From Breoghania sp. L-A4 (GTDB lineage Bacteria > Pseudomonadota > Alphaproteobacteria > Rhizobiales > Stappiaceae): a stretch of DNA of 64,000 nucleotides. The translations under genes were made by a program, and so were the position numbers. Positions 26,725 through 41,569 of this stretch are shown here, one piece after another. The notes under the pieces were generated by a model. The model was not told the DNA's origin and searched no databases. It saw only the letters and a list, made by a program, of their open reading frames with translations. The stretch's first letter is position 1; every line of letters starts with the position of its first letter. Where the stretch lies: contig NZ_CP031841.1 of assembly GCF_003432385.1 (NCBI RefSeq), forward strand, positions 2,085,579 to 2,149,578. The letters are read 5' to 3'.

Positions 26725-27654
26725 TTAGCCGGCCTGTGCGCGAAAGCCGCCGGCCACTTCACGGATCGTGTTCATCAGCAGCTCCGCCAGCGGCGAGGGC
26801 GCGATGTCCGATCGCGTCGTGATGCCGATGGACCCCATCATCGCCGATCTGTCGATCGGCAGCTCCACGAGCGTTCCAGCCGCGATGTCTCCGTCGATGG
26901 CGCCGCGCGGCACCGCCCAGACGGCGTCCGACGCCAGCGCATAGGCGCGCCCGAAGGTCACCGAAATGGTCTCCACCTGGTCGGAAGGCAGCCGGATGCC
27001 GTTGGCGATCAGGAACCGGTCCACCTCCTTGCGGATCACCGTTCCCTCCGGCGGCAGCGACGCGGGAAAGCGCGACAGGGCCGCCAGATCGAAAGGCTCG
27101 GCGGCGCTCAGCGGATGGCCCGCGCGCACCACCAGCGTCATCGGCTCGGAATAGATATGCTCAAACGCCAGCCCGGTCATCTGGTCCGGCTCCACCAGCC
27201 GCCCCACCACCACGTCGAGGTCCCCCAGCCGCAGTTGCGCCAGAAGCGAGGCATTGGATCCGGTCGACACCCGCACCACGGTTTCCAGCGCGGTCTGCTT
27301 GAACAGGTTTAATGCCCGTGGCATCAGTCTCGCCGCCACATTGGGCAGCACGCCGGCGCTGACGATATATCCGCCCTTGGATTGCGCCCGCGAGACGCTG
27401 TCGATGCCCTGATGCAGCGCCATCACGCTGGCCGCGGCGTGCCGCATGAAGATTTCCCCGAAGCGCGTCAGCCGCACGCCCTTCTTGGAGCGGTCGAACA
27501 ATCTCGCGCCCAGCGATTCTTCAAGTTCTTTCAAGGTCTTGGAGACGGCGGGCTGCGACACGCTGAGCGCTTCCGCCGCCCGCACGATGGAGCCTTGGCG
27601 GGCGGCCTCCAGAAAGCACTGCAAATGGCGGAACTTGATGCGCGTGTCGATCAT
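26725..27654 (-). CDS. pcaQ: LysR-type regulator of protocatechuate catabolism
   Basis: A 309-residue LTTR. The helix-turn-helix is in FLEAARQGSIVRAAEALSVSQPAVSKTLKELEESLGARLFDR (~14-55), followed by the effector domain. It is divergent from pcaHG, 235 bp away, with a dyad operator between. In Agrobacterium and Sinorhizobium PcaQ activates the pca operon with beta-carboxy-cis,cis-muconate or gamma-carboxymuconolactone as co-inducer. The assignment rests on position and the N-terminal sequence. Confidence 0.85.
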   Translation of the reverse strand: MIDTRIKFRHLQCFLEAARQGSIVRAAEALSVSQPAVSKTLKELEESLGARLFDRSKKGVRLTRFGEIFMRHAAASVMALHQGIDSVSRAQSKGGYIVSAGVLPNVAARLMPRALNLFKQTALETVVRVSTGSNASLLAQLRLGDLDVVVGRLVEPDQMTGLAFEHIYSEPMTLVVRAGHPLSAAEPFDLAALSRFPASLPPEGTVIRKEVDRFLIANGIRLPSDQVETISVTFGRAYALASDAVWAVPRGAIDGDIAAGTLVELPIDRSAMMGSIGITTRSDIAPSPLAELLMNTIREVAGGFRAQAG

Positions 27655-27735: not shown

Positions 27736-27889
27736 GTTGCGCCGATGCATTTTGGCGCCGGCTATTCGAAATGGAGAGGCTCCGGACCATCTTGTGCTCG
27801 GACGGGCGCGCTTGCCGGAGCTTCGGAATAGATCAGCAGCTTGCGGCTATGGCTCGGCTCGAGACCGCATGTTGATCCAGGAGGGAAAT

Positions 27890-28591
27890 GTGACCGACCA
27901 GTATCGCCCCAGGGATTGGGATTCGCATCCGCCGTATCTGCACGCGGGCTACAAGTCGACCGTGCTGCGCTCGCCGACCAAGCCGCTCATTCCTATGAAG
28001 CAGACGCTGTCGGAAATGACCGGCCCGGTCTACGGTCACGAATATGTCGGCGCGCTGGATGCGGACCTGACGAAGAACGGCATGGTCAACGGCGATCCGC
28101 TGGGCGAACGCATCATCGTCACCGGTCGGGTGCTCGACGAGGACGGCCGCCCGGTGCGCAACACGCTGGTGGAAGTCTGGCAGGCCAACGCCGCCGGACG
28201 TTACATCCACAAGACCGACCAGCATGAAGCGCCGCTTGATCCGAACTTCTTCGGCGGCGGCCGCTGCGTCACCGACGATGAGGGACGCTATACCTTCCGC
28301 ACCATCAAGCCGGGCGCCTATCCCTGGCCGAACCACTACAACGCCTGGCGGCCGAACCACATTCACTTCTCGCTGCTCGGCCCCTCCATCGCGACCCGTC
28401 TGGTCACCCAGATGTATTTCCCCGGCGATCCGCTGCTCGATCTCGATCCGATCTACCAGGGCACGCCGGAAAGCGCGCGCGAGCGGTTGATCTCGCAGTT
28501 CGACATTGGCGTCACCGAGCCGAACTTCGCGCTCGGTTACAACTTCGACATCGTCCTGCGCGGCCGCAAAGAAACACCGATGGAGGCCTGA
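27890..28591 (+). CDS. pcaH: Protocatechuate 3,4-dioxygenase beta subunit
   Basis: A 233-residue intradiol dioxygenase subunit that opens protocatechuate to beta-carboxy-cis,cis-muconate with PcaG. The iron site lies in IKPGAYPWPNHYNAWRPNHIHFSLLG, supplying the two Tyr and two His ligands. RPRDWDSHPPYLHAGYKSTVLRSP is the typical PcaH N-terminus. I chose GTG 27890 because a GGAGGG site precedes it by 5 bases; ATG 27869 would add 7 residues. pcaG follows after 3 bp. Only pcaHG is here; the other pca genes must be elsewhere. Confidence 0.95.
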   Translation: MTDQYRPRDWDSHPPYLHAGYKSTVLRSPTKPLIPMKQTLSEMTGPVYGHEYVGALDADLTKNGMVNGDPLGERIIVTGRVLDEDGRPVRNTLVEVWQANAAGRYIHKTDQHEAPLDPNFFGGGRCVTDDEGRYTFRTIKPGAYPWPNHYNAWRPNHIHFSLLGPSIATRLVTQMYFPGDPLLDLDPIYQGTPESARERLISQFDIGVTEPNFALGYNFDIVLRGRKETPMEA

Positions 28592-28594
28592 GCG

Positions 28595-29185
28595 ATGACC
28601 TTGAAGCAGACCCCGTCGCAGACGGTCGGACCGTATTTCGCCTATGGGCTGACGGCCGGACAATACGGCTACAATTTCTCGCAGATCGCCGGATCCGAGC
28701 TCACCGATGAAGACACCGAGGGCGAGCGCATTCGCATTGAGGGCCGCGTTCTGGACGGCGAGGGGGCGCCAATCAGCGATGCGATGATCGAGATCTGGCA
28801 GGCGGATGCGGATGGCCGCTTCGCGCACCCGGACGACCCGCGCCGGCCCAACGCCCGCTTTACCGGCTTCGGCCGCTGCGGCACCGGCACAGACCCTCAG
28901 AACCGCTTCTTCTTCGACACCATCAAGCCGGGCGCGCCGGCCGAGGGCGAGGCGCCGCATTTCAACATGATCGTGCTGGCGCGCGGCATGCTGGTGCACG
29001 CGTACACGCGGATCTATTTCTCCGACGAGGCGGAGGCCAACGCCGCCGATCCCGTGATGCAGCTTGTCCCCGAGGAGCGCCGCGGCACCCTGATCGCCGA
29101 GCGCGTCGAGACGCCGACGGGCGTGCGGTATCGCATCGACATCCACATGCAGGGCGATGCGGAGACGGTATTTTTCGACGTCTGA
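28595..29185 (+). CDS. pcaG: Protocatechuate 3,4-dioxygenase alpha subunit
   Basis: A 196-residue non-iron partner of PcaH: LKQTPSQTVGPYFAYGLT, GRVLDGEGAPISDAMIEIWQADADGRFAHP, TIKPGAPAEGEAPHFNMIVLARGML. The iron ligands of PcaH are not conserved, as usual. It directly follows pcaH and is followed by a strong intrinsic terminator. Confidence 0.95.
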   Translation: MTLKQTPSQTVGPYFAYGLTAGQYGYNFSQIAGSELTDEDTEGERIRIEGRVLDGEGAPISDAMIEIWQADADGRFAHPDDPRRPNARFTGFGRCGTGTDPQNRFFFDTIKPGAPAEGEAPHFNMIVLARGMLVHAYTRIYFSDEAEANAADPVMQLVPEERRGTLIAERVETPTGVRYRIDIHMQGDAETVFFDV

Positions 29186-32321: not shown

Positions 32322-34231
32322 CTAGCGGCGATCCTTCAGGATCACATCGGCGGCCTTTTCGGCGATCATGAACACGGCACAAAGGATGAAGAAGCCCGGA
32401 ATTTTCGGAAACACCGAGGCGTCGACCACCCGCAGGCCCGTGACCCCGCGCACCCGGAAGGCGCTGTCGAGCACGGCGTTTGCGTCGCCGTCCCTGCCGA
32501 TGGCGCAGGTGCACGAGGCGTGATGGCCCCAGGCGTTGTCGTGCACGAACGTGCTCAGCGCCGCGTCATCCGTGGCCCGCGGGCCGGGGCTTTCCTCTTC
32601 CGCGATCAGATGCCGGATGGTGCCTGCTGCCTCGTGCACGAACTTGACGCCCTCGACCACGGAAGCCAGATCCTCGCCGCTGGCATCGGTTCCCTCCTCG
32701 AAGTATCGGAAGTTGATCTTCGGCCGCTTGCGCGGGTTCGTGGGATCGTCAGGGTCGAGTTCGACCGAGCCGCCGGTGTTGTGCGTGTGCGCCTTGAGCA
32801 CGGTCCAGGTGAGATAATCGGGGCGGATGGAATCGCGCGAATAGCCCGGCTGATAGCCCATGAAGCGGCCGAGCACGGCGAAACAGAACAGATCAGGCAG
32901 GGGACGGGAAGGGGCGGACCGGCGCACCACGGCAATCGCCGCGCCGTTGGTGGTATAGGCGCCGCGGCGGTTCTGCCATTGCCGGTAGACGCGGTCACCC
33001 TTGCGCAGTTCCACGCCGCCGAGTGCCCCCAGTCGCTCTTCATGCGGTTGACCTGGGTGACCTCGTAGCGGTCCTGCAGGTTCTTGCCCACGCCCGGCAG
33101 ATCGGCGCGCACGGCAATCCCGTGAGCCTCGAGCGCCGCTCTGTCACCAATGCCCGAGAGCATGAGGAGCTGCGGCGTGTTGAAGGCGCCGCCGGCGAGG
33201 ATCACCTCGCGCGAGGCGAAGACCTGGCGCGCCTCACCGTCATGGCCGCTTGGCCGCCAGTGGGCCTCGTAGAGCCGCTTGCCCTTCTGGTAGGCGACGC
33301 CAATGGCGCGGTTGTCGTCATCAATCAGCACGCGGGTGACCAGAGCGTCGAGTTCGATGGTGAGCCTGTCCGGATGCCTGTGCTGGACTTCCAGCAGCCG
33401 CTCGCGGGTGCCCATGCGCGCGTGGCCTCGGGTGGTCAGCGGCGGATAGCGAATGCCGATGGCGTCTTCCTCCACCAGCCGCCAGTCGTTGGGATCTCCC
33501 TTGCCCTCGAACGCCCAGGTGAAGCGGTTGACCGGGTCGTCGTTCTTCTTGAGTGCGTATTTCACGGCGCGGGCGAGCGTATGCACCAGGACGAAATCCC
33601 ACAGCGCGCGACGCGGGAACGCCTTCTCCGTGCGCAGCCAGCCATTGAACCCGTGCCGGGTGGGATTCCATCCCAGCAGTTTGCCGATCCAGCGCCAGGG
33701 CGGCCAGAGGCGATGCCGGCAATCCTCCATGCGCTCGAAATAGCCGCGCATGGCGTCCGCCTTCCAGCTTTTGTCGCCTGTCAGCGCCGCGATATCCTCC
33801 CAGTCCTTGTTGTGCGGATACAGCAGGATCATGGCGTTGTGCGCCGTGCAGCCGCCGAGCGCGCCGGCGCGCGGATAGTACACGCCATCGACCGTCTCGC
33901 CGTTGAACGTCTCGCGATACTTGGGATCACGCTTCTGTTTCGCCGTGTCGCCGTAGTGGCGGACCCAGAAATCCCAGCGAAGCGCGTGGTTTTCGGTCGA
34001 CAGGGCGTGGAACGCCGGGACCTCGTAGTCCTGCGCCAGGCGTTCGGCTTGGGGAAACAGCGGATTGCCTCCCTGGAGCCGCTTGGGATCGCCGCCCGCC
34101 TCCAGCACCAGCACGCGCGCGCCCGCTTCCGCCAGCCGTGCCGCGACCGTGCCGCCGCCCGCGCCGGAGCCGACGACGATGTATTCGTATTCCGCTTTCG
34201 CGGGGTCCGCCGCTTTCGTGCCGTCCGTCAT
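32322..34231 (-). CDS. GMC-family FAD oxidoreductase, frameshifted
   Basis: 636 residues after repair. The FAD Rossmann motif is YIVVGSGAGGGTVAARLAEAGARVLVLEAGG (~17-47). GGCTAHNAMI is the first GMC signature region and ILAGGAFNTPQLLMLSGIG the second. The C-terminal domain has DNAWGHHASCTCAIG, with the catalytic His, and LRVVDASVFPKIPGFFILCAVFMIAEKAADVI. One G is missing near 33026-33030, joining QVNRMKSDWG to GVELRKGDRVYRQW. No signal peptide or RR motif is seen, so export would need a partner. It starts 22 bp after the di-heme cytochrome gene. Substrate unknown: an alcohol, sterol or similar. Confidence 0.88.
33026..33030 (-). other. Single-base deletion in the GMC oxidoreductase
   Basis: On the coding strand GACTGGGGGCACTCGG needs one more G to connect both conserved halves. 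Confidence 0.8.
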
Positions 34232-34253
34232 GCGCGTTCCTTTCCGCGCCGCC

Positions 34254-36950
34254 TCAGAATGTCTTGAGGAACTCGATCAGCGCCCATTTCTCCTCGTCGG
34301 TCAGTTTGCTTCCGAAATAGTGGCCGCGATTGACCACATAGTCGGGACACTTGTTGATGCTCATCAAGGGATCGACGAGCGGCGCGAAGGCTGCGCGCGC
34401 GTCTTCATCGGAGGCGTCTTTGGGCAAATCCTTGAGCACGGAGACCGCCTGTTTCAGCACGCGCTTGACCTTGACTGCATGGGCAAGCCGGGACTTGATG
34501 TCGGTCTCGCGCGACACGGGCTGGATGTTGGCGACCAGGTTGACCGGCGTGCCGGCCGGGATCGGTCCCAGCTCGAGCAGACCCGTTTCCACCTCGCTGA
34601 AGGCCCAGGGAAACAGCCGTGGCAGCCAGGAACTCATGCCGACGATGTTGTTCAATGGATCGGGCAGGTAGGTTGCGGGCACCCGCAGGTAGCTGCGCGT
34701 GGTGGTGCGCTGGATGTAGCCCGGAACCGTGTCGCCCAGCTTTGCGTCAACGCGGCGCTTCTCCGGCCACAGCATCTTCTGGATGGAATCGTTGAACGAG
34801 GCCATGCGGGCCTCGAGCGACGGCTCGCCGTAGAAATTGCCGACCGAATTGTTGAGCAGATAGGGCGCGCTTGACCACAGGCTGACGAGGGACGCGGGGC
34901 GCGTGTACCCGCGCCCGCCGCCCGGCATGTCGTACTGCCACGGTTCGCCGGTGACCGGGTGGTGCACCGTGATCTTGCCCACCGCGGGCAGCTGCTTGTA
35001 GGTGGTGGAGGTGAAGTTGTCCCAGATGTCGCCCGCGATCCCGTTGGTGGCCAGCGGGCTGCAGGCATTGGTCTGCAGGATCGTCACCGGAATGCGGCGG
35101 TCTGTGGAGAGGAAGTTGTTTTCCAGAAAATCCGGTTTTTGCACTTCCGCGCGCATCCAGTCCTTGTAGGCGTCGGAATTCCAGGCAATCGAGCCGTCTC
35201 CACAGGTCTCGCCCGGCGCGCAGAAGTTGTCCGGCTGTTTTGAGGAATGGCACGCCGCGCAATTCTCGGCGAACAGCCGTTTTCCCTCGTTGAGCTGCGC
35301 CGTGTCGGAACCGAGATAGGCCTCGCCGCCGGGGGTGTCGGCGAGCTTGTCAGGCGGCGCGCTTGTCAGGAAGAACAGCGCCAGATCCGGCGTCTGCAGC
35401 GTATTGGCGTTCCAATAGGCGGAGTTCCTTTCCGCCACAGCGATCTCGAACGGCGTGATGTGGCCGCCGAGCAGCGGCTTGAAGTGCGTGAGCCACTCCT
35501 CGCTGAACAGCCCGATGTTGACATAGACCCGGTTGAGCGCTCCGAGGACCCCGACGGAATCCGCCCCGTCCTTGAGCACATGCGGAGTGAACACCGTGTC
35601 GGGCTGCTCGAAGAACTGCCCAAGCACCCGCGTCTGCTCGAAATCGTTGAGCTGCTTGTTCAGCATCTCGCCGCCGCTGAGCTTCTCCTTCGCGGATTTG
35701 GCCATCTGCATCCGCGCGGCCAGGGAATAGACCGCGTTCATGGTGCGCGGATTGTTGATGTTGTCGGAGGAGACGAGCGAGGTGTCGAGCGTTCCGGGCA
35801 GCCACGAATGGGCGATCTGGTAGATGAAATTCTCGTGCCGTGCCTTGGGATTCCAGGTGAACACCCGATCGATCCAGGCGTATTGCGCGCCGGGATTGGA
35901 GGTCATGTGCTCCCACTCGGGCTTTTCGGGATCGGGTGGCGGATTGACCGGATTTGGCCCCACATGGCAGAAGCCGCAACTCATGCCGACCCGGTAGGGC
36001 CGCACCAGATCCCTGTCGAGGAAATAGCCGGGATCGGTGTAGTAGCGCTCGGGGTCCCAGCGGGCCCGCGCCGCTTCATCGAAGTCCGGGTTCGGAAACA
36101 GCCGCAACCCGACGATGCCCGTCGGCTCGCCGTAGTAGGAGCCCACCGGCAGGGTGCCGTCGCCCCGCGCGCCGATCTTCACGCCGGGATATGTCTGTTC
36201 ATCGGCGAAGGGATCGTCGCCGGGGCAGTCCGGGCCGTAGGTGCGCACGTCGAGCCACAGGCCGAAATGCTTCGGGTCGCCGCCCTTGGGCGGCCGGAAA
36301 CAGGGCTCGTTCATCAGCCCGTAGTATTTCCAGCGGTTCTCACGGCCGACGCGATACCACGCGCGGTCCGCGCCCTCGCACGCGTCGTCCTCATAGAGCA
36401 GGTAGCCCGGCGGATAGGGGGTGGCGCGTCGCGCCGGCGCATCGCCTGACGCCGTGCGCAGGGGTTCGACCGGCCGGCTGCCCGCCGGCGGCTGCCCGTC
36501 GTAGCTGTAGACGGGCCCTGAGTTGCCGCAATAGCGGATGGCGTCGTGGCTGGAGATGATCTTCAGCAGGTCGAAGGCGCCATAGGTGTGATCCGCGAGA
36601 TGGTCCCACAACCGGTCGTTGCCGCCGGTCCACACCACCCAGTTGTTGCGGCCGCGGTTGTAGGCCTTCCATACTGCGTCCCGGGAAAACATCCGGCCGA
36701 GCGCGCGCGGCTCCATGTCGAGCGCGCGGGCGAGCTCTGCGAACACCCGCTGCTTGTCCCAGCCGTGATCCATGTCCTTGAGATAGTCGCTGTCCGAACC
36801 TGGCATGCTTTCCGGCGTGCGCCCCGCGCGCATGGCCTCGCCGAGCACCGCGCCGCTTTCCGGCGCGGTGAGCGCGCGCACGACCACGGGGCCAAGCAGG
36901 ATGGCGATACCGGCGAGGATCGAAAGGGTGATGATGCGCGGCTTGTACAT
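34254..36950 (-). CDS. Large di-heme c-type cytochrome
   Basis: An 898-residue exported protein. Residues ~5-27 (IITLSILAGIAILLGPVVVRALT) are a signal peptide or membrane anchor. Two heme c motifs are present: CGFCH at ~324 and CAACH at ~563. The second half recalls di-heme peroxidase/MauG-like and RoxA-like proteins but is much longer than either. Cys-rich loops (CAPGETCGDG) may add disulfides. Lying between the patatin and the GMC oxidoreductase with 15- and 22-bp gaps, it probably takes electrons from the GMC enzyme or oxidises the same substrate. A RoxA-like oxygenase function is also possible. Confidence 0.8.
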   Translation of the reverse strand: MYKPRIITLSILAGIAILLGPVVVRALTAPESGAVLGEAMRAGRTPESMPGSDSDYLKDMDHGWDKQRVFAELARALDMEPRALGRMFSRDAVWKAYNRGRNNWVVWTGGNDRLWDHLADHTYGAFDLLKIISSHDAIRYCGNSGPVYSYDGQPPAGSRPVEPLRTASGDAPARRATPYPPGYLLYEDDACEGADRAWYRVGRENRWKYYGLMNEPCFRPPKGGDPKHFGLWLDVRTYGPDCPGDDPFADEQTYPGVKIGARGDGTLPVGSYYGEPTGIVGLRLFPNPDFDEAARARWDPERYYTDPGYFLDRDLVRPYRVGMSCGFCHVGPNPVNPPPDPEKPEWEHMTSNPGAQYAWIDRVFTWNPKARHENFIYQIAHSWLPGTLDTSLVSSDNINNPRTMNAVYSLAARMQMAKSAKEKLSGGEMLNKQLNDFEQTRVLGQFFEQPDTVFTPHVLKDGADSVGVLGALNRVYVNIGLFSEEWLTHFKPLLGGHITPFEIAVAERNSAYWNANTLQTPDLALFFLTSAPPDKLADTPGGEAYLGSDTAQLNEGKRLFAENCAACHSSKQPDNFCAPGETCGDGSIAWNSDAYKDWMRAEVQKPDFLENNFLSTDRRIPVTILQTNACSPLATNGIAGDIWDNFTSTTYKQLPAVGKITVHHPVTGEPWQYDMPGGGRGYTRPASLVSLWSSAPYLLNNSVGNFYGEPSLEARMASFNDSIQKMLWPEKRRVDAKLGDTVPGYIQRTTTRSYLRVPATYLPDPLNNIVGMSSWLPRLFPWAFSEVETGLLELGPIPAGTPVNLVANIQPVSRETDIKSRLAHAVKVKRVLKQAVSVLKDLPKDASDEDARAAFAPLVDPLMSINKCPDYVVNRGHYFGSKLTDEEKWALIEFLKTF

Positions 36951-36965
36951 GCGTTCACTCGACAG

Positions 36966-39900
36966 CTATGCGGGTTTGGTGGCGGCTTTCCGCGATCTGG
37001 TTCCAGTCTTGGTGGCCGGCTTGGCGGATCGCTTTTGCGCGGCGGTCTTCGGGGCGGCCGCTTGAGCCGGACCGCCGGAGGACGGCCCGTTCGGCATCGT
37101 GCGCAGCGCGGCAAGCGCCGGGCGCGCGCCGCCGGCGAACTTCGTGCCGAGATCGAGTTCCTCGATCATTTGCTCGGCGATGGCGTAGCCGACCGAGCGA
37201 TAGGCTTCGAACTGGGGTTCGGCGAAGAACTGGTCGGCGGTGGTCTCGTCGGGGAAATCCGGATTGGCGCCCTTGTAGCCCTTCGCCACCATGTCCAGCG
37301 GCTCGATCATCGCGGTCTTCATGTAGATGACGAGGCCATATTCCGGCCACGGTCCGCCGCCGCGGCCGTTGTAGTCGACGCGGGCGAGGAAATAGCCCTT
37401 GTCGGAGTATTCGGCGCCCTTGGGATAGAGAGTGTCTTTTGGGGGGCGGGGGATCAGATGCTTGGGATCGGATGTCACGCCGTGGACGTCCAGATCGAAT
37501 TTCACGGTGGCGCCGAAATCCTGGCCGATGCGTTGCAGCGCCGTGACGAAATCCGAGTAGGACGCCTGGGTATCCTGGCCGCCGTCGCAGATGATGATCA
37601 GACCGCACCGCCGCCGCACAAGTTCGTAAAGCGCAAGGTTTTCGAAGTGGCCGCCGTCGCTGAGTTCCTGGAACGTCGAGTCCTCGGTGTAACCGGCCCA
37701 CGGCAGGACATAGGCGCCTCCGGGCACGAAGTGGTTGGGGCGCACGCGGGTGGGCCTCTTTCGGTCCGGCCGCCGCACGTAGTACCCCAGCCGGAGGTTC
37801 AGGAACGTCATGGCCAGGGACACGAAGCGGTTGCGGGTGACGCCTTGTCCGCCGACGCCGGCGCGCGGGTTGGCGGCCGCGCCCGAGATCGCCATCGCGG
37901 TGGCGAGCGTCATGCCGCCCAGAATGAAGTCGCGCGTGGCTTGCCAGCCGGTGGCGCGGGAACCGCAATACAGCGGCGAGAGGATGAAGTTGTCGCCGCC
38001 GCGCAACGCGAATTTGCGGACTTTTGAATTCACCAGCACGGCGTTGGTGTTGATGATGTGATAGGGGCCGGGGCACGGACCCTGTCCGACATCCTTCAGG
38101 TGGAAATCGTCGGCGAGGCTGGCAGGCCGACGCAGGTTGTCGTGCGCGGTGCGGTAGTCGGGCAGGAAGGCTTCCATCAGCCTGTCGCGGTAGTAGCGAT
38201 GGATCGAGATGTAGTTGATGTTGACGAACCAGCCCACCACCGCGGAAAGGGCCGCGAGCGCCGTCAGCGCGACGACGTCGGGTCCCGTGGCGGAGAAGTT
38301 GATCGCCAGCCGGTAGGACAGCAAGAGCACCCCGTAGAGCAACAAGAGCGAGCCGATGATCAGCACGAGTTTGGTGCTGCCGCCGGGGCCGGATTTGCTG
38401 TGCGCCTTGAAATGTCCCCACAGGGCGGTGGCCGCGCCCGCGAGCACGCTGAGCGCGCCTTCGCTGCCGTTCAGCCGGTCACTGATCAGCGCCACGCTGA
38501 AGGGAATGCTCGCGACGATCAGCAACACGATGATGAGCGGCAACCACAGACCGTAGACACGCTCAAAGCGCCTGCGGCCGCTGTACTTCAGCGAGATGGA
38601 AGTGTCGCGCCAGGCGTGCTCGATAGTCAGCGCCAGCCAGAAAAAGAGCATTGCGGCCCCGCCCATGATGGCGAGAATCTCGCAGCCGAACGAGGCGATC
38701 ACGAAGACGTCCGACCAGAAGCCGGGCATCAGCCAGCCGGCAAGCCAGGCAAACAGGCCGTTCAACAGCCACAGAATGAAAAAGCCGGCGAAAACCAGGT
38801 AGAGACGGATGCTTTCCTGAGGATTGAGCCCCTTCAACCCTTCCGCGTTGATGAGCAGCAGAAGGTTGACGACGACGAAGCCTGCGAACAGTTTTATGTC
38901 AGCGAAGAGATTACCCGCAATCTGGCCCGAAGACGCATCGCCGATGGCATTGATTTTCGCGATCACCAGATAGATCAACACGAAGATGGCGGCGAAGATG
39001 GCCGTGACCTTGAGGAAGCTGAGTTCGCGTCGTGCGGCGGGAATCGCCTCGAATTGATCCGTCGCCTCTGCACGCGGGCCATCGGGTTTCGTGGCGCTTG
39101 CGAAGGACATCCAGGACAACAGCGAGAAGGCGACGGAGGAAAGGAAAAACAGGACCACGCCCAGGCCCGCGATCAGGAAGGGAATTGCGTAGAGCCCCGG
39201 AATGGCGCCGGCATCGCTCGCTTCCAGCGTGGGTATCGCACCGGCGACACGCGCCAGAAGCGCGTTCAGCGGCTCCAGCCCGATCCAGTGGTCGAGAAAG
39301 CGGTCCAGATAGTGGACGCACATGAAGCCGAAGGCGAGGATCGGGATCCAGACGAGCAGGTTGAGAAAGATTGCCCGCAGCACGATGGCAATACCTGAGA
39401 ACAGGGTAATGTCCCCGCCGGGCACCAGATAATTGCCGTTCTGGCGCAGGTAGGTGAGGATTTCGGTGGTGTTGGCGGGGTTGGCCGGTGTCCTGGTTCC
39501 ATAAGGAAACGTGTCCGGACCGAGATCGAGCGCCTCGGTGCTGCCGTTGTGCCCGCTCAGCCACCACGACAGCGCCGAGCCGATGTAACCGCCGCCTGAA
39601 ACGGTGGAGAGATAGTCGACGTGGCGGAGGATTCCCGCGCGTGCCAGCCGTTGCAGCACGCCGAGCGAAAACACCGCCGAGCGGATGCCGCCTCCCGACA
39701 GCGCCATGCCGAAGAGATACGGTTTATCACCGTCATCCTCGGGCGTTCGCTCCACGTCCGGATCCGGCGGATTGTGCCGCCGTGCCTCGTTGTCCGCCTC
39801 AACGGCCGCGCGGATGGCTTCCACGTGCTCCAGCGCACACTCAGGATTACATGCCTTGCGCCGCTGAGCGGCGATATAGGCCAGTTCGTTCTCGATCAGC

Positions 39901-40025
39901 GCATCGTCGCCGCAACGGTCCTCGTCACCAAAAGGAAAAACGTATGGCGCGGGCGGCTCCTCGCCGTCCTTTCGTGCTGCGAAATACGACTTGATCGCGT
40001 GAAAATCGAAACTGCCTGTCGCCAT
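36966..40025 (-). CDS. Patatin-like phospholipase with a large membrane insert
   Basis: A 1019-residue protein. The N-terminal patatin part has the oxyanion loop SGGGIRS (110-116) and the nucleophile motif LSTVSGGGYIGSALSWW with Ser143. About residues 210-630 contain many hydrophobic segments (roughly 8-10 membrane helices). The patatin fold then resumes, with the catalytic Asp in DGGHFENLALYELV near residue 788. The C-terminus is Ala/Lys-rich and basic. The catalytic dyad is therefore split by a membrane domain. It is the first gene of the operon with the di-heme cytochrome (15 bp downstream) and the GMC oxidoreductase. Lipid hydrolysis at the inner membrane is inferred. Confidence 0.85.
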   Translation of the reverse strand: MATGSFDFHAIKSYFAARKDGEEPPAPYVFPFGDEDRCGDDALIENELAYIAAQRRKACNPECALEHVEAIRAAVEADNEARRHNPPDPDVERTPEDDGDKPYLFGMALSGGGIRSAVFSLGVLQRLARAGILRHVDYLSTVSGGGYIGSALSWWLSGHNGSTEALDLGPDTFPYGTRTPANPANTTEILTYLRQNGNYLVPGGDITLFSGIAIVLRAIFLNLLVWIPILAFGFMCVHYLDRFLDHWIGLEPLNALLARVAGAIPTLEASDAGAIPGLYAIPFLIAGLGVVLFFLSSVAFSLLSWMSFASATKPDGPRAEATDQFEAIPAARRELSFLKVTAIFAAIFVLIYLVIAKINAIGDASSGQIAGNLFADIKLFAGFVVVNLLLLINAEGLKGLNPQESIRLYLVFAGFFILWLLNGLFAWLAGWLMPGFWSDVFVIASFGCEILAIMGGAAMLFFWLALTIEHAWRDTSISLKYSGRRRFERVYGLWLPLIIVLLIVASIPFSVALISDRLNGSEGALSVLAGAATALWGHFKAHSKSGPGGSTKLVLIIGSLLLLYGVLLLSYRLAINFSATGPDVVALTALAALSAVVGWFVNINYISIHRYYRDRLMEAFLPDYRTAHDNLRRPASLADDFHLKDVGQGPCPGPYHIINTNAVLVNSKVRKFALRGGDNFILSPLYCGSRATGWQATRDFILGGMTLATAMAISGAAANPRAGVGGQGVTRNRFVSLAMTFLNLRLGYYVRRPDRKRPTRVRPNHFVPGGAYVLPWAGYTEDSTFQELSDGGHFENLALYELVRRRCGLIIICDGGQDTQASYSDFVTALQRIGQDFGATVKFDLDVHGVTSDPKHLIPRPPKDTLYPKGAEYSDKGYFLARVDYNGRGGGPWPEYGLVIYMKTAMIEPLDMVAKGYKGANPDFPDETTADQFFAEPQFEAYRSVGYAIAEQMIEELDLGTKFAGGARPALAALRTMPNGPSSGGPAQAAAPKTAAQKRSAKPATKTGTRSRKAATKPA

Positions 40026-40396
40026 AGTCTTGAGGTGCTTTTTCTAAAAATTTTGGGTTCTAAGACGCGGTTCACGGTTGGAAAATCGATCAAAAATCGG
40101 AAATTGAGCAACGGCGGCCGAAAACCGGCGGTCATGCACACTTGGCGCGGCGGCATTGTTCGAAATTGCGGCATGACGCCGGCGCGCGCTGGAAAAGTCT
40201 AATCCAAGCCTTGGGGTGACGCAAGGTAATCGGCTGCCGCCCCGCGGATGACGGCTGGAGCATCGGACTTTCATGCCGGGATGGGCTGGTCTAGATTTCG
40301 TGCGATGAATCGGTCCCCGCTCGCGCCGGCGGGGAATCAGGATGAAAAATGGTGGCGCACGATGCGCGCGGGCCGGCGCCGGTGGGGGAGACGACA
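40026..40396. promoter_or_regulatory. Divergent intergenic region
   Basis: 371 bp between the patatin operon (minus) and the FAH-family gene (plus). The part near 40030-40110 is AT-rich and probably holds the patatin promoter. No gene or strong dyad is seen. Confidence 0.45.
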
Positions 40397-41569
40397 ATGG
40401 TGGACGTGCGGCAGGCATTGCCCGAGGACGGATTGGCGGGGACGCTGGTGGGACGGGCCCATGTGCCGGGCGAAGGCCCGAGCGTCGTGCTGCTCGGCGA
40501 AGACGGCGTGTTCGATCTGTCGCGCAGCTTCGCGACGATGACGGATGTGATCAATTCGCCGGGCGCACCCGCGGTGCGCGCCGCGCTGGCATCGGCGACG
40601 CGCATCGGCTCCGTCGAGGAACTGCTGGAAAACACCGGAACGACCGAGGTGCCCGGCTCGGGCGACATGCCGCATTTCCTGTGCCCAGTCGATCTGCAGG
40701 CGGTGAAGGCCGCGGGCGTCACCTTCGCGGAATCCATGCTGGAGCGGGTGATCGAGGAGAAGGCCAAGGGGGATCCCGCGGCCGCCGAGGGCATCCGCCG
40801 CACCATCAGCGGCGACATCGGCGTGGATCTCGCCACTTTGGTGCCGGGATCGGACGATGCCGAGCGTCTCAAGGCCACGCTTCAGGCGCAGGGCATGTGG
40901 TCGCAGTATCTGGAAGTCGGCATCGGTCCCTACGCGGAGGTCTTCACCAAGACCCAGCCCATGGCGTCGGTCGGTCTGGGCGCCGAGATCGGCCTGCATC
41001 CCGAATCGTCATGGAACAATCCCGAGCCCGAGGTGGTGCTCGTCATCGACAGCACGGGAAAGATCGTTGGCGCGACGCTCGGCAACGACGTGAATCTGCG
41101 CGATTTCGAGGGACGCAGCGCGCTGCTGCTCTCAAAGGCCAAGGACAACAACGCCTCGAGCGCCATCGGTCCGTTCATCCGGCTGTTTGACGACACCTTC
41201 ACGCTGGACGATGTGCGCGCCATGGATGTGGCGCTGGAGATTTATGGCGAGGATGGCTTCGAGCTGAAGGGCGGTAGTTCGATGAGCCTGATCAGCCGTG
41301 ATGTGGAGGATCTGGCGCGCCAGACCCTGAACGCCAATCATCAGTATCCCGACGCGCTGGTGCTGTTCACCGGCACCATGTTCGCGCCTGTGACGGACCG
41401 CGACGCGCCGGGGCAGGGGTTCACCCACCACATCGGCGACGTCGTGCACATCGCCACGCCGAAACTTGGCCGGCTGATCAACCGGGTGACCACATCGGAC
41501 AGGATCGCGCCCTGGACGTTCGGCGCGTCCGCGCTGATGAAGAATCTCGCCGGGCGCGGCCTGCTGTGA
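40397..41569 (+). CDS. Fumarylacetoacetate hydrolase-family protein
   Basis: A 390-residue FAH-fold enzyme. The metal-binding region is seen in HPESSWNNPEPEVVLVIDSTGKIVGATLGNDVNLRDFEGRSALLLSKAKDNNASSAIGPFIRLFD; the E and D residues there are typical ligands. The ~390-residue size and this motif resemble the FAH members acting on 2-keto-3-deoxy sugar acids (KdaD-like dehydratases). It is not the homogentisate-pathway FAH, which is at 61272. ATG 40397 has a GGGGGAG site 7 bases upstream. Confidence 0.82.
   Translation: MVDVRQALPEDGLAGTLVGRAHVPGEGPSVVLLGEDGVFDLSRSFATMTDVINSPGAPAVRAALASATRIGSVEELLENTGTTEVPGSGDMPHFLCPVDLQAVKAAGVTFAESMLERVIEEKAKGDPAAAEGIRRTISGDIGVDLATLVPGSDDAERLKATLQAQGMWSQYLEVGIGPYAEVFTKTQPMASVGLGAEIGLHPESSWNNPEPEVVLVIDSTGKIVGATLGNDVNLRDFEGRSALLLSKAKDNNASSAIGPFIRLFDDTFTLDDVRAMDVALEIYGEDGFELKGGSSMSLISRDVEDLARQTLNANHQYPDALVLFTGTMFAPVTDRDAPGQGFTHHIGDVVHIATPKLGRLINRVTTSDRIAPWTFGASALMKNLAGRGLL

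Follow-up and report, generated by a model that had tools for sequence, protein, structure and literature searches.

A giant di-heme cytochrome and a GMC oxidoreductase recur side by side, mostly with lipase-type genes, in Breoghania and other proteobacteria: a possible lipid-oxidation module

To our knowledge, few bacterial oxylipin enzymes are known. Among described systems, PA2077 and PA2078 come closest to the genes reported here: the original report describes them as a RoxA-like di-heme fatty-acid dioxygenase and diol synthase (PMC4496055), and a second paper places their activity in the periplasm (PMC5155153). We analysed a stretch of 64,000 nucleotides from Breoghania sp. L-A4 (contig NZ_CP031841.1, positions 2,085,579 to 2,149,578; this whole stretch is called the window), in which the surrounding genome is a single contig of 5.03 Mb. 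Three co-directional minus-strand genes in the window encode a patatin-like phospholipase, a giant di-heme c-type cytochrome and a GMC oxidoreductase, spaced by 15 and 22 bp in the list of open reading frames (ORFs), exactly as a preliminary description of this DNA had read them:

36966 to 40025, minus strand: patatin-like phospholipase, 1019 aa (ORF, Pfam PF01734, alignment A4).
34254 to 36950, minus strand: giant di-heme c-type cytochrome, 898 aa, of the RoxA-like superfamily, with an N-terminal export signal or anchor.
32322 to 34231, minus strand: GMC oxidoreductase gene, in two reading frames (ORFs, Pfam, tblastn and guanine-cytosine (GC) content by codon position).

The giant cytochrome shares with PA2077 and PA2078 its place in the RoxA-like superfamily and, compared by the published spacing alone, its heme sites lie 239 residues apart against 245 and 235 there. 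It differs in size, with 898 aa against about 65-67 kDa, and neither a GMC oxidoreductase nor a patatin is mentioned in the main text of PMC4496055. We tentatively propose that the genes belong to a lipid-oxidation, oxylipin-type module, and we put the chances of this reading a little short of even.

The case for such a module comes from the recurrence of the genes. We compared twelve loci that carry a close relative of the cytochrome: the window, a Gilvimarinus locus, three further genomes (G332, G142 and G810) and seven of 21 plasmid records, from Sinorhizobium B11, Rhizobium johnstonii 3841, Sinorhizobium fredii, Mesorhizobium onobrychidis, Rhizobium Pop5, CCGE532 and WYJ-E13. Several of the rhizobial loci are near-identical, so that the twelve are not independent. 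First, the gene next to the cytochrome encodes a GMC oxidoreductase of one and the same subfamily in all twelve loci. Second, a lipase-type gene is found within the stretch in 10 of the 12, and it persists while its type varies: a patatin of the window type stands at the cluster in the window and in G142, a patatin with N-terminal membrane helices in 3841, Pop5 and WYJ-E13 (broken in S. fredii, where it is split over two frames), a 512-aa patatin upstream and on the opposite strand in G810, and a DUF900 alpha/beta hydrolase in Gilvimarinus, another of which lies beside the G142 patatin. Third, in two rhizobial lineages the GMC enzyme and a patatin are fused into a single protein, of 1562 aa in Mesorhizobium (pOM4) and 1537 aa in CCGE532, the fusion being present in Rhizobium CCGE531 as well. 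The divergence of the cytochrome and that of the GMC protein were also correlated (Mantel r 0.94, p 1e-4) over ten loci, the window, with its split GMC gene, and WYJ-E13, with its GMC untranslated, being left out. Recurrence, fusion and co-divergence together counter chance adjacency. A role as maturation partner of LodA/GoxA was set aside as well, since, in the regions with annotation that we inspected, a LodA/GoxA gene appears close to the Mesorhizobium locus and nowhere else.

A plasmid of Calothrix adds a further context. It carries the GMC gene followed by a patatin gene, and BLAST gives 55.9% identity between its GMC protein and the one of G142. The same strand holds, upstream, a gene for a 303-aa protein, one for a transposase and a 110-aa ORF. 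At a distance of about 2.5 kb from the GMC gene it also has an animal-type heme peroxidase, almost all of which can be matched to plant fatty acid alpha-dioxygenases (4kvj, E=9.5e-121); no cytochrome is annotated in this stretch. Taken together, the invariant cytochrome-GMC adjacency, the lipase-type gene in most loci, the GMC-patatin fusion and the Calothrix context support a lipid-processing unit. The preliminary description had suggested a lipid- or terpenoid-processing chain passing electrons into the periplasm; the lipid unit is supported by this context, whereas terpenoids, though conceivable substrates, are not favoured over fatty acids and an electron hand-over from the GMC enzyme to the cytochrome is not supported (see below).

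Most rhizobial clusters are larger. Those of B11, 3841, S. fredii and Pop5, together with G810, add a flavoprotein of the old-yellow-enzyme family, two RoxA-like cytochromes and a 143-aa membrane protein, and the two extra cytochromes are present in WYJ-E13; this additional set was not seen at the Mesorhizobium and CCGE532 loci. The 143-aa protein (L059, 6958-7389) has four hydrophobic segments, lies between the two RoxA-like cytochromes and has no Pfam match. Other combinations occur too. Behind the cytochrome-GMC pair of G332 come two proteins without a family, a DyP-type peroxidase (80 bits on TIGR01413, below the cut-off of 100.5) and a protein that, among solved structures, is closest to the catalase-related allene oxide synthase of coral (1u5u, E=0.0035). 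The G413 stretch contains neither the giant cytochrome nor the GMC gene; there, a patatin of the window type stands with an SMP-30-type gene, a RoxA-like cytochrome (483 bits on NF040606, cut-off 150) and a member of the catalase family whose best structural match is 3e4w (E=7.8e-7). We count both neighbourhoods in favour of the module.

How far the three genes occur together was assessed across genomes and plasmids. At the level of genus, family and order, 101 genomes were covered and the cytochrome matched in four: its own genome, G089 and G096 with distant relatives, and G019 with a weak match of 63 residues. Of 398 genomes sampled from the phylum and searched at 1e-20, five matched; the own genome, G283 (Gilvimarinus), G332 and G142 are close and G177 is distant. 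Of 385 sampled from the class, seven matched, the own genome and G810 being close and five distant. A peptide-pattern scan of genome contigs, which detects close relatives only, returned one cytochrome locus, in Gilvimarinus agarilyticus (54%). The cytochrome was found in 21 of 72,556 plasmid records, all rhizobial, and no relative was confirmed in the viral contigs scanned.

We then used the Calothrix GMC protein as a plasmid query, chosen independently of any cytochrome, with a threshold of 1e-60. It recovered 23 records, which include all 21 cytochrome accessions with neighbouring coordinates; the remaining two are the Calothrix plasmid and one from Microvirga. At 1e-120, a GMC profile matched exactly the four close-cytochrome genomes of the 398-genome sample; the profile was built with all four included and scored on the top three candidates per genome, and what is informative is that the remaining 394 gave no match. 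With the patatin profile, 31 of these 398 genomes matched, among them two of the four cluster genomes, both with the patatin adjacent and both represented within the profile. Since the patatin matches 31 genomes and the GMC protein only four, the patatin is a recruited, non-core partner of the cytochrome-GMC pair. Independent occurrence of the genes, which the preliminary description had named as the refuting case, thus has a split outcome: the cytochrome and the GMC enzyme stay together in 21 of 21 cytochrome plasmid records, but the patatin family is widespread in the absence of both. Two side observations belong here. In Microvirga (L066, 7205-11752), the GMC gene is flanked by two ORFs of 582 and 299 aa without Pfam match, and G251 (L114, 7424-11869) contains a patatin-bearing open frame of about 1481 aa that is a possible fusion or a chance read-through.

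The features of the giant cytochrome relevant to its classification are the following:

35964 to 35978, minus strand: first heme site CGFCH, residues 325-329, with CxxCH at the equivalent place in 12 of 12 loci.
35247 to 35261, minus strand: second heme site CAACH, residues 564-568, with CxxCH at the equivalent place in 12 of 12 loci.
34320 to 34322, minus strand: His877 in NRGHYFG, aligning with the NGGHDF stretch of RoxA (4b2n).

Both heme motifs and the length of 898 aa are those of the preliminary description. His877 would be the counterpart of the axial His641 of RoxA, judging from this alignment, and a hydrophobic segment spans residues 6-24. In Pfam, cytochrome c signatures were found around the second heme only, and neither a full-length Pfam nor a full-length NCBIfam family was reached: the protein scored 44.2 bits on NF040606 (CytoC_perox) against a cut-off of 150, and 21.5, 19.3 and 18.1 bits on the RoxA, RoxB and RoxC models against cut-offs of 1000, 900 and 900. 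At 1e-3 it had no match to PF21419 (RoxA-like_Cyt-c), whereas the rhizobial partner cytochromes cyt508 and cyt491 do match this family. The connection to RoxA was made by profile comparison. The partner cytochromes and their relatives (A5) match RoxA 4b2n at E=9.8e-26. The giant family in turn matched the A5 profile in the C-terminal heme region with a local probability of 97.8 over 107 columns, which rose to 98.6 over 185 columns with more members included, and a forced global alignment (probability 99.5) brought both heme sites and the terminal GH into register with the RoxA-like set. Distant giant cytochromes align to the giant family over 661 columns (7.9e-80). Because these comparisons join the giant family, the partner cytochromes and RoxA, we conclude from sequence profiles that the giant cytochrome is a divergent branch of the RoxA-like superfamily, outside the curated RoxA and CytoC_perox families, and the earlier RoxA-like lead was right. 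A structure prediction from a two-row alignment was discarded (mean predicted local distance difference test score (pLDDT) 29.8, model useless).

Relatives of the partner cytochromes also turn up near distant giant cytochromes. We inspected four of the five distant loci of the class sample (all but G551), those of G177 and G089, and two contig ends of G096. Cytochromes of the cyt508/cyt491 type lie nearby in G089, G797, G575 and G638; in G177 the neighbouring protein has two CxxCH motifs and no family match, and in G727 and G096 no cyt508/cyt491-type neighbour was seen. Genes with a Tle1-like (DUF2235) phospholipase domain were noticed near RoxA-like cytochromes in S. fredii (L060, 2343-3728) and G797 (L090, 1527-2636), and the Mesorhizobium cytochrome (L061, 8536-11634, 1032 aa) has four hydrophobic segments at about residues 824-922 that the window cytochrome does not have.

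In the patatin, three features are central:

39597 to 39599, minus strand: codon of Ser143 (STVSGGG), invariant in A4.
37656 to 37658, minus strand: codon of Asp790 (SDGG), invariant in A4.
38217 to 39392, minus strand: membrane region, residues 212-603, with nine strong hydrophobic segments by hydropathy.

The protein scored 38.2 bits on PF01734 (gathering cut-off 27.7, E=2.3e-9) and carries SGGGIR from residue 110 together with the Ser143/Asp790 dyad, and it is therefore a patatin family member, with Thr instead of Gly two residues before Ser143. Its domain is not contiguous: the Pfam match spans residues 108-261 and the dyad is interrupted by the membrane region, in agreement with the earlier remark that membrane helices part the Ser and Asp halves. 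The count of nine segments reflects a simple hydropathy threshold with no topology model behind it. No solved structure was matched by sequence at E up to 1. The patatin domains of the Mesorhizobium and CCGE532 fusions are 27-29% identical to the window patatin (A4), and the former scored 26.6 bits on the Pfam Patatin model, just below its cut-off.

The GMC gene is broken in this genome, at the following positions:

33014 to 33031, minus strand: stretch where the GMC frame changes (ORFs, tblastn, codon-position GC), with a run of five G at 33,026-33,030.
32520 to 32525, minus strand: double histidine of WGHHASC, the second His aligning with the conserved GMC His.

Both GMC_oxred_N and GMC_oxred_C were found by Pfam in the window, but in two frames, whereas they share one frame in the locus L006. 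The FAD-binding (flavin adenine dinucleotide) N-terminal half lies in one frame, whose ORF continues to 32606 as unrelated residues. The other frame, at 33014-32322, encodes the C-terminal half, to which the histidines of WGHHASC belong. By tblastn, the intact 623-aa Gilvimarinus protein matched the window over residues 3-386 at 61% and 391-622 at 59%, in separate open frames, and the codon-position GC pattern switches frame at the break (at a resolution of 150-base windows). These three lines agree on a frameshift, so the gene is not intact as had been assumed. A deliberately frameshifted GMC was rejected, the relatives in alignment A3 having one open frame. Breaks are seen at other loci too: the GMC of CP140805.1 and CP090115.1 matches in two pieces. 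Since its halves retain 44-61% identity to ten relatives, the break looks like a recent mutation or an assembly or sequencing error, as judged from the one genome of this species. Given the frameshift, the GMC step may have been lost in this genome.

Members of the GMC subfamily retain both the FAD motif and WGHHA. At the site of the second catalytic His or Asn, the alignment rows covering it show Phe instead (IPG[FYL]F). This assignment was made by ungapped alignment to 8b7s, with the Asn that we take to be the catalytic one there. The catalytic His of the preliminary description is thus present as the first of the two residues, the second being changed. The best solved relatives are the chloramphenicol-inactivating oxidoreductase 8b7s, choline enzymes, patulin synthase and fatty acid photodecarboxylase, a range that does not fix the substrate, and no NCBIfam cut-off was reached by the window GMC pieces or by the GMC protein of 3841. 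A structure prediction of the Gilvimarinus GMC alone gave a useless model (mean pLDDT 33.5).

The N-termini bear on where the enzymes would act. All 12 giant cytochromes have a hydrophobic, export-type N-terminus, which resembles a lipoprotein signal (LISGC) in Gilvimarinus. Among 13 GMC proteins, the FAD motif begins at residue 10-45, none has a twin-arginine pair in its first 45 residues, and a hydrophobic N-terminus was seen only in G142, ahead of a possible internal start (perhaps a misplaced start). Because the cytochromes have export-type N-termini and the GMC proteins, G142 apart, do not, direct electron transfer from the GMC enzyme to the cytochrome is unlikely; the fusion of the GMC enzyme to the patatin also speaks against the earlier idea of such a hand-over.

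On these grounds, the module could work as follows. The membrane patatin would act on membrane lipid and release an unsaturated fatty acid or a lysolipid. The exported RoxA-like di-heme cytochrome would then use O2 (or peroxide) to form a hydroperoxy or hydroxy acyl chain, and the GMC enzyme, held beside the patatin at the membrane and fused to it in some rhizobia, would oxidise the hydroxyl, giving a keto group or an aldehyde. Further enzymes would reduce or cleave this product: the old-yellow-enzyme-family reductase and the two RoxA-like cytochromes of most rhizobial clusters might add later steps, such as reduction of the enone so formed. What we observed are the gene set, its conservation, the fusion, the Calothrix context, the superfamily membership and the N-terminal signals; the substrate, the order and direction of the steps and oxygenase rather than peroxidase chemistry are what we infer.

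Several observations weigh against this scheme. The cytochrome and the GMC enzyme appear to sit on opposite sides of the inner membrane, so that the substrate would have to cross it or reside in it, and the patatin gives mixed topology signals, the counts of positive charges placing its N-terminal side inside in the window and G060 and not in Mesorhizobium, CCGE532 and G142. The link of the giant cytochrome to RoxA depends on profile comparison: next to the low CytoC_perox score, the direct match of a seven-member giant-cytochrome profile to RoxA 4b2n is weak (E=0.0012), lies where RoxA has its last axial histidine, and is outranked by a heme subunit of cbb3 oxidase (E=0.00011). No lipase was recognised in two of the twelve loci (Sinorhizobium B11 and G332), where some of the neighbouring genes were scanned, and the catalase-related match in G332 is weak. 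None of the distant giant cytochromes inspected has an adjoining GMC gene of the subfamily, apart from a weak 60-residue match about 3 kb off in G638, and for the GMC gene on the Microvirga plasmid no cytochrome or patatin partner was recognised. The patatin family is mostly found away from the other two: window-type patatin loci without either partner were seen in G060, G014, G070 and G087 and on Paracoccus, Bradyrhizobium and Cupriavidus plasmids, and both partners were missing in six of seven further genomes inspected out of the 29 other patatin-positive ones. In Calothrix, the 303-aa protein just upstream of the GMC gene (L065, 7966-8877) has no Pfam or PDB match, and the 110-aa ORF and the transposase gene part the dioxygenase-family gene from the GMC and patatin genes, so that the apparent swap of oxygenase may be chance. 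Because this transposase makes the dioxygenase neighbour possibly accidental, we lowered our confidence in the lipid-oxidation reading from even to its present level.

A more specific version, which by analogy with plants would make the cluster a so far undescribed bacterial oxylipin pathway moving between lineages, is clearly less probable than the general one, and we regard it as speculative. It would follow a jasmonate-like order, with a lipase, the giant di-heme cytochrome in place of a lipoxygenase and the GMC enzyme as alcohol oxidase, to which plant-associated rhizobia would add an ene-reductase of the old-yellow-enzyme type, possibly making oxo-lipid signals at the plant interface.

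Somewhat less probable again is that the cytochrome cleaves a polyisoprenoid or other olefin in the manner of RoxA (a rubber-like polymer, squalene or a carotenoid) and that the other enzymes process the ketone or aldehyde products for growth. Its membership of the RoxA superfamily would fit, as would the two additional RoxA-like cytochromes and the old-yellow-enzyme-family flavoprotein of the rhizobial clusters; however, scores of 18-22 bits against RoxA/RoxB/RoxC cut-offs of 900-1000 speak against it, and the lipase-type genes and the fatty-acid dioxygenase-family neighbour in Calothrix point to acyl lipids. The invariant cytochrome-GMC adjacency, the co-divergence and the c-type hemes could also be explained if both proteins formed a membrane dehydrogenase like gluconate or fructose dehydrogenase, in which the GMC enzyme would oxidise an alcohol and the cytochrome would relay the electrons to the respiratory chain, with the patatin as a loosely linked lipase. 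We consider this improbable, since the GMC proteins have no twin-arginine pair and, G142 excepted, no hydrophobic N-terminus, the cytochrome, as an exported di-heme protein of RoxA-like type, differs from the cytochrome subunit found in dehydrogenases of this kind, the Calothrix stretch retains GMC and patatin genes with no annotated cytochrome, and the GMC fusion partner is the patatin and not the cytochrome. Least probable is a lipid-hydroperoxide detoxification that protects the membrane and yields no signal, the patatin removing damaged chains, the cytochrome acting as a peroxidase and the GMC enzyme clearing alcohols: the family is annotated as cytochrome c peroxidase, G332 has catalase-related and DyP-type proteins beside the pair, and the G413 cluster includes a protein of the catalase family, but the close cytochrome is rare and patchy (4 of 398 genomes), unlike a general protection, and the family of the Calothrix neighbour makes fatty-acid hydroperoxides according to PMC13049297.

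Beyond the three genes, the window contains two adjoining genes that, as read from the sequence, resemble protocatechuate 3,4-dioxygenase subunits (27737-29185), with a LysR-type regulator beside them (26725-27654), and, upstream of the patatin on the opposite strand, a gene that by eye resembles the fumarylacetoacetate hydrolase family (40349-41569).

If the lipid-oxidation reading is right, a cluster recurring across proteobacterial classes, with a possible cyanobacterial version that uses a different oxygenase, would represent a whole pathway with testable substrates. It would also give a likely function to the giant cytochromes, most of which are 'hypothetical proteins' on rhizobial plasmids, including that of Rhizobium johnstonii 3841, in which gene removal is routine.

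Compared with known systems, the cytochrome shares with RoxA, RoxB and RoxC (4b2n; NF050033, NF050034, NF051462) the di-heme c-type architecture and the conserved C-terminal NxGH motif; it differs in being about 225 residues longer than the RoxA model, far under the cut-offs, and accompanied by other gene partners. CytoC_perox (NF040606) is a shared broad family, whose cut-off is exceeded by the rhizobial cyt508 and the G413 cytochrome but not by the window protein. In Nostoc, the linoleate 10S-DOX works with a catalase-related hydroperoxide lyase, a case cited in PMC13049297; it is likewise a bacterial fatty-acid oxygenase paired with a second heme enzyme, albeit of another oxygenase family. 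With described GMC oxidoreductases (choline dehydrogenase, 8b7s, fatty acid photodecarboxylase), the GMC protein shares both Pfam domains, the FAD motif and the first catalytic His, and it differs in forming its own subfamily, with Phe for the second His/Asn, and in being encoded by a broken gene in this genome. No publication joining these families was found among the titles and abstract openings of the papers listed, in a search that lay mostly within openly available rather than subscription literature. The kinds of enzyme are known; relative to the sources searched, the novelty lies in their combination, in the fusion of GMC and patatin and in the branch of giant cytochromes.

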